Assembly: GCA_944324465.1 (NCBI GenBank)
Contig: CALUWI010000007.1
Coordinates: forward strand, 62,001 to 126,000
From: an uncultured Mucispirillum sp.
GTDB lineage: Bacteria; Chrysiogenota; Deferribacteres; Deferribacterales; Mucispirillaceae
Length of the DNA: 64,000 bases
Direction of reading: 5' to 3'
Part shown: positions 6,337 through 20,664 of the stretch, in pieces
How positions within the stretch are numbered: the first letter of the stretch is position 1
How the letters are laid out: each line of letters starts with the position of its first letter
Position numbers and translations under genes: made by a program
The notes under the pieces: model-generated
Told to the model about the DNA's origin: nothing
Seen by the model: only the letters and a program-made list of their open reading frames with translations
Database searches by the model: none

Positions 6337-8184
<1,848 letters not shown>

Positions 8185-8216: not shown

Positions 8217-8245
8217 TATGTTATCACTGGGGGGGGGATTGTCAA
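8217..8245 (-). promoter_or_regulatory. Lipoprotein promoter with C9/G9 tract in spacer
   Basis: On the minus strand a perfect TTGACA (8240-8245) is followed by AT, nine C residues (G tract at 8229-8237 on the plus strand), then AGTGATAACATA. A -10-like TAACAT lies 16 bp after the -35 box, or AACATA at 17 bp. Change in tract length would alter promoter spacing, as in known poly-G/C phase-variable promoters. Box assignment for the -35 is clear; the -10 is weaker. Confidence 0.65.
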
Positions 8246-19960: not shown

Positions 19961-20063
19961 ATATACCTCCGCTGCATTTAAACATTTTAGAATACTATAA
20001 TAATAGAATATAATCAAGTGGAATAATTTTTTATACAAGTATTGTGTAGTAATAAAATTTTTC

Positions 20064-20094
20064 TTGACATTTTGCAAGCGGGGGGGGGTATGAT
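20064..20094 (+). promoter_or_regulatory. Promoter with G9 tract in spacer
   Basis: A perfect TTGACA (20064-20069) and a strong TATGAT (20089-20094) are separated by 19 bp, the last nine of which are G (20080-20088). At the optimal 17 bp the tract would be G7, so slippage should tune expression. It drives the small gene at 20125 and probably the lipoprotein at 20356. Confidence 0.75.
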
Positions 20095-20124
20095 GAGTCA
20101 TTAAATCCTAAAAGGAGGTATTAT

Positions 20125-20307
20125 ATGGCTGACAAAATTAAACCAGAGGATAATGTATCAAATATGCAAAATCCTAATCCTGACACTGATGGCATAAATG
20201 AACAGTTTAAAGCAGCTCAGGACAACAGGTCAAATCAGTTAAATCCTAATAATCCAGCATACTGGAAAAGCAGGGGAATTGAGCCTGAAGATAAAGCTGG
20301 TAAATAG
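20125..20307 (+). CDS. Small hydrophilic protein, putatively phase-variable
   Basis: This 60-residue protein is very polar and rich in Asn, Asp and Pro. It lacks a signal peptide and Cys, and ends with NPNNPAYWKSRGIEPEDK. It has an ideal AAGGAGG site before ATG 20125. No family is recognised. Its promoter contains the G9 tract, and the small lipoprotein gene follows by 48 bp. Confidence 0.7.
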   Translation: MADKIKPEDNVSNMQNPNPDTDGINEQFKAAQDNRSNQLNPNNPAYWKSRGIEPEDKAGK

Positions 20308-20355: not shown

Positions 20356-20664
20356 ATGAAACTTAAATTATTAACTGCTGCATTATTATTTGCTATGATT
20401 GCAGGCTGTTCATCAGTTGTGCCTGTAAATTCTACTTTACCTGTAACAGTTACACTTTCTGCTAACGATTTAAAAATAGGGGATAAAATTACTCACACAA
20501 TACCATACAATAAAAAAGACCCTAATATATATGCAAAAGTGTATAGAGAAGCTCTTGTAAAATCAGGCTATGATTTTATACTTCTTCCACAGTATGAAAT
20601 AAAAGATTCTGTTTTTAAAAGCACTATTACAATCATCGGCTATGGTGCAAATGTAAGAAGATAG
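20356..20664 (+). CDS. Small lipoprotein of unknown function
   Basis: The 102-residue product starts MKLKLLTAALLFAMIAGCSS with a clear lipobox (IAGC), so it is a predicted lipoprotein. The mature part is about 85 residues, contains KIGDKITHTIPYNKKD and ends in a strand-rich segment. I chose ATG 20356 for the signal peptide and the AAAAGGGGA site upstream; an in-frame ATG at 20320 would spoil the signal. It probably shares the poly-G promoter of the previous gene. Confidence 0.75.
   Translation: MKLKLLTAALLFAMIAGCSSVVPVNSTLPVTVTLSANDLKIGDKITHTIPYNKKDPNIYAKVYREALVKSGYDFILLPQYEIKDSVFKSTITIIGYGANVRR

Follow-up and report, generated by a model that had tools for sequence, protein, structure and literature searches.

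A G9 tract in a promoter spacer as a predicted transcriptional phase-variation switch in Mucispirillum, with related tract promoters across the genus

The promoter at positions 20064–20094 (+) of the window (the whole 64-kb stretch of Mucispirillum DNA analysed here) is predicted to be a transcriptional phase-variation switch that operates by slippage, a reading to which we assign, from sequence comparisons, a probability of roughly three in four. Its -35 box TTGACA (20064–20069, a perfect match) is followed by a fixed 10-bp part of the spacer, TTTTGCAAGC (20070–20079), by the presumed slippage tract, the G9 homopolymer GGGGGGGGG (20080–20088), and, directly abutting the latter, by the -10 box TATGAT (20089–20094, one mismatch). 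The spacer is exactly as an earlier note on this DNA had described it, 19 bp long with G9 at its 3' end, and the homopolymer lies entirely between recognisable -35 and -10 boxes, as in phase variation of the porA, fetA and tp0126 type. Promoter geometry places the predicted transcription start at 20101 (+), about 7 nt past the -10 box; downstream lie a Shine-Dalgarno sequence AAGGAGG (20112–20118, +), the gene of a 60-aa Asn/Asp/Pro-rich protein without a signal peptide (20125–20307, +, ATG at 20125) and, as the second ORF, the gene of a 102-aa predicted lipoprotein with a leader ending in AMIAGC (20356–20664, +), which is probably co-transcribed with the first. The lack of a signal peptide in the first protein of the operon speaks against the switch reading. 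Neither protein matches a family in Pfam or NCBIfam, in agreement with the earlier note, which had called them undescribed; for the 102-aa lipoprotein, a comparison with PDB sequences also gave no match worth using, and its structure model is poor (mean pLDDT 55). The neighbouring genes, with names read from their translations, are pyrH (divergent) and lepB (convergent).

The 2.42-Mb genome of the window contains 35 runs of G or C of at least 8 (one of 11, eight of 10, two of 8 and the remainder of 9) and none of exactly 7. The genome-wide search proposed in the earlier note, for runs of eight or more between the two promoter boxes, found six of these 35 between TTGACA and a -10-like box; the number expected for all 35 tracts was 0.02 in a simulation that used AT-rich flanks (3.4 × 10-4 per tract orientation). 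It is highly improbable that the G9 tract has no promoter role and either arose by chance or belongs to an extension of the divergent pyrH frame at its N-terminus. The minus-strand frame is indeed open through the C9 in the window's genome (G000) and in G008, up to position 20101; however, pyrH has a start with its own ribosome-binding site near 19961, its orthologue in G002 has no extension, promoter boxes flank tracts of this kind throughout the genus, and the chance expectation for the window's genome is 0.02, so both readings were rejected.

A survey of ten Mucispirillum genomes revealed two classes of tract promoters. The C-class comprises 65 distinct promoters with the consensus TTGACATT-C9-RTGATAWAAT, in which the tract is 7–11 long (C9 in 49 of the 65) and the fixed part of the spacer mostly stays at 6 bp while the tract varies; the spacer measures 15 bp in 40 promoters, 14 bp in nine, 16 bp in nine and 19 bp in four. 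The G-class comprises seven promoters of the form TTGACA-N10-G9-TATGATG, all with exactly G9 running directly into TATGATG, and six of them share both the 10-bp fixed part and the 19-bp spacer. An extended -10 element (TG one base 5' of the -10 box) is present in 46 of the 65 C-class promoters and in none of the G-class. The G9/19-bp type is rare, with one copy in the window's genome, whereas the C9/15-bp type dominates in the genus. Matches to a loose G-oriented pattern show no enrichment relative to the backward control (6 against 4 in the genus), so that it is the shared architecture of the G-class and its conservation in four species that support it. The window's other tract promoter (8218–8245, -) is of the C-class, TTGACA-AT-C9-AGTGA-TAACAT, with a 16-bp spacer and its C9 (gene strand) at 8229–8237; it lies upstream of a lipoprotein gene (6337–8184, -) and has a counterpart in G008 with identical C9 and 16-bp spacer. 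In the lipoprotein itself, the leader is followed by a TGDGGN motif repeated about 20 times. Thus, of the proposal that the window holds two promoters of the same design, the second promoter is real and the common design is not (C-tract and 16 bp), while the idea of a genome-wide strategy holds well: the genome has six spacer tracts and the design extends across the genus, although its dominant form, a C-tract with a 15-bp spacer, is unlike the one claimed.

Beyond the genus, a pattern scan of named genomes found such promoters in Mucispirillum, in one uncultured Deferribacterales MAG and in one Clostridia MAG; the last match (L191), the sole one outside Deferribacterota, was treated as chance. 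Within the phylum, the C-class is confined to Mucispirillum and one sister genus (G048), apart from two chance-like matches. Runs of G9 are also carried by other Deferribacterota, and G047 has about as many as Mucispirillum.

The textbook optimum for a promoter spacer is 17 bp, which would correspond to G7. Among 108 ordinary, tract-free TTGACA/TATAAT promoters of the genus, spacers of 15, 16 and 17 bp occur 21, 28 and 20 times (together 69 of 108, mode 16), the other spacings 2–11 times each. The optimum of 17 bp and G7 given in the earlier note was therefore close, the genus promoters being centred on 16 bp (15–17), which gives G6–G7. Since 19 bp exceeds the range of 15–17 bp of ordinary promoters, the G9 promoter is probably weak or off as sequenced, and the G9/19-bp form would represent the weak state, with an optimum probably at G6–G7. 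The G-class would need G6–G8 for 16–18 bp, and G9 is the only length observed; in the C-class, C9–C11 correspond to 15–17 bp and span the optimum. Judged from the ordinary spacers, C9 (15 bp) would be near the optimum, C10 at it, and C8 and C7 below it.

In the proposed mechanism, the promoter would be of the sigma-70 type and the slippage-prone G9 tract would set the distance between its boxes. Slipped-strand mispairing during replication would add or remove one G, changing how far apart the -35 and -10 boxes lie and how they are phased on the helix, and hence the binding of RNA polymerase. G8, G7 and G6 would give spacers of 18, 17 and 16 bp with rising output, the output being the small hydrophilic protein and the lipoprotein. 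In C-class promoters (TTGACATT-C9-RTGATAWAAT, 15 bp, extended -10), C10 would bring the spacer to its optimum of 16 bp, and with C8 or C7 it would be poor. Every cell would then express a set of surface lipoproteins of its own.

The tracts do vary in length between orthologous promoters. One promoter has C9 in the window's genome and C7 in G006, with about 200 bp of flanking sequence almost identical; another set has C8 in G000, C8 in G006 and C9 in G009, again with near-identical flanks, and additional orthologous pairs also differ in tract length. The tracts are also pure: a search seeded with CCC only returned 62 matches, of which 54 contain an uninterrupted C7–C11, and the remaining eight are about as many as the backward control yields (7), i.e. 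interrupted or short forms are hardly present. Both observations bear on an alternative in which G9 or C9 serves a conserved promoter class as a fixed element, either structural or bound by a regulator: RNA polymerase would be assisted at a spacer of unfavourable length by a factor or by the stiffness of the G:C run, and changes in length would be incidental. We regard it as unlikely. It would account for the bunching of spacers at 15 bp (C-class) and 19 bp (G-class) around an ordinary centre of 16 bp, for the 19 bp retained in G002 with an interrupted tract, and for the slightly greater uniformity of promoter tracts, 56 of 69 of which have length 9, as compared with 53 of 82 other tracts (p=0.03). 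On the other hand, C-tracts range from 7 to 11 over a mostly constant fixed part, some promoters with near-identical flanks are distinguished by the tract alone, interruptions are scarce although a binding site should accept some, and 9 is the commonest length in non-promoter tracts too, which lie beyond the action of any such factor. In the orthologous promoters at L054, L132 and L146 the core (tract and -10 box) differs between species, but about 100 bp on its downstream side and 50 bp on its upstream side are essentially the same, as if the core were evolving faster than its surroundings.

At the G9 locus itself, compared in one genome per species, the promoter is kept in four species: G000, G008, G009 and G002. 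The -35 box is TTGACA in G008 and G002 and ATGACA in G009; the tract is G9 in G000, G008 and G009 and GGGGGGAGG (G6AG2) in G002, where the spacer nevertheless still measures 19 bp. With one genome per species, no variation in tract length at 20080–20088 was seen among the three species with a pure tract. The lipoprotein has orthologues in G008 (94% identical) and G009 (92%) and none in the other seven Mucispirillum genomes; the 60-aa protein is 95% identical in G008 and 50% in G009, and the small protein at the same place in G002 is a different one. Such a pattern might be expected if phase variation held for the C-class and the G9/19-bp copy were locked or decaying, with constant low expression, a possibility that we consider quite improbable. 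The constancy of G9 in three species and its interruption in the fourth, the rapid divergence of the first gene and the lack of a G9-type promoter in the pyrH–lepB gap of G001 agree with it; the strong conservation of the -35 box, tract and -10 box in G000, G008 and G009, together with that of the lipoprotein, argues against it, and an uninterrupted G9 is no less prone to slippage than the coding tracts of this genome. The phase-variation reading, which we prefer, implies that the G9 locus would itself switch. That expression follows tract length, as the earlier note expected, is suggested for the class by the differences between orthologues in the tract alone, by tract purity and by published analogues, but not by this locus, where G9 is constant across three species.

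The genes downstream of tract promoters are strongly biased in type: a lipoprotein leader is encoded by at least 44 of the 70, compared with 10 of 149 background ORFs (p=1.5 × 10-18). Their products fall into 29 sequence families, and the lipoproteins include RCC1-repeat, MORN-repeat and PKD-domain types as well as many without a known family. The sister genus G048 has six promoters, four of them with a clear downstream gene, which encodes a lipoprotein-like protein in three cases and a protein with a cleavable signal in one. One stereotyped slippery promoter thus appears to have been placed before many lipoprotein families across a gut-commensal genus and its sister genus, and the surface of Mucispirillum is probably varied at random. 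Mucispirillum is well known from the mouse gut and has been linked to inflammation; if our prediction is correct, large differences in surface composition should exist from cell to cell, and the benefit may lie in surface diversity and in avoidance of phages or the immune system. The roughly 70 natural spacer variants would also allow the tuning of promoters by spacer length to be tested in vivo. Lipoproteins under a C9 promoter are found at L056, L080, L084, L124 and L147, and the one scanned (L056) consists of RCC1 repeats, which are more typical of eukaryotes.

A more speculative extension, which we consider doubtful, is that the two classes form a two-sided stochastic surface coat, with the large C9/15-bp class just short of the optimum and the small G9/19-bp class past it. 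An insertion of one base would then turn the C-class up and the G-class down, a deletion would do the reverse, and each cell would wear its own combination of lipoproteins. If so, a shifted slippage bias would move both sets of genes in opposite directions.

Phase variation through promoter spacers has been described for a small number of individual genes of pathogens. The slippage mechanism has been shown for the poly-C of fetA and the poly-G of porA in Neisseria (PMC5320596) and for the poly-G of tp0126 in Treponema (PMC7864442). In fetA (frpB), as in our C-class, a C-tract lies between the -35 and -10 boxes, and its length alters their spacing and the transcription of an outer-membrane protein gene; however, a single gene with C10–C14 is involved there (PMC5320596), as opposed to tens of Mucispirillum promoters, most of them before lipoproteins, that follow one consensus and have C9 (or G9) as their commonest tract. 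The porA promoter of Neisseria meningitidis resembles the one studied here in having a G-tract in its spacer (compare 20080–20088), and its transcription drops when the 17-bp spacing is lost (PMC7864442, discussion), whereas the spacer is 19 bp long in every sequenced copy but one of the Mucispirillum G-class. Poly-G tracts are likewise found in promoters of surface-protein genes of Treponema pallidum: that of tp0126 (OmpW) works best with a 17-bp spacer, and those of tprE/G/J are active only with 8 Gs or fewer (PMC7864442). That system differs in concerning few genes, in the tprL tract, which overlaps the -10 region instead of lying wholly in the spacer, and in belonging to an unrelated phylum. 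In Campylobacter jejuni, tracts are mainly G9–G10 and are kept so by opposite biases, insertion at G8 and deletion at G11 and above (PMC8355987); Mucispirillum has the same length profile, and also tracts in polysaccharide, restriction and methylase genes. The tracts of C. jejuni are, however, mostly inside genes, with an intergenic minority, in contrast to the recurrent spacer-type promoter of Mucispirillum, and functional mismatch repair is absent there, whereas Mucispirillum has mutS1. The working principle is most likely that of fetA, porA and tp0126, membership being assigned by structure. What differs is the scale and standardisation, i.e. one design before many families of surface proteins in a commensal genus. 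A literature search found no earlier report of phase variation for Mucispirillum or its phylum, and the words 'phase' and 'homopolymer' are absent from the M. schaedleri genome paper.

Slippage through loss of mutS was considered and rejected, as mutS1 is intact in the window's genome. Most of the non-promoter tracts of this genome lie within coding sequence, where they leave the frame intact in some cases and shift it in others; among paralogues, coding tracts of equal length are found in either state. Six molybdopterin oxidoreductase genes (PF00384), on other contigs of the window's genome, have a G9 or G10 tract just past the leader (L031, L034, L046, L051, L057 and L058); as assembled, the frame is open in L046 and L057 and shifted in L034 and L058. 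Phase-variable anaerobic respiratory enzymes, if that is what they are, would be unusual. G9 tracts were also found in one type I restriction specificity gene, one DNA methylase gene and glycosyltransferase/MBOAT genes clustered on contig C9 (L049, L055, L043 and L044), and these are likely to be further contingency loci.
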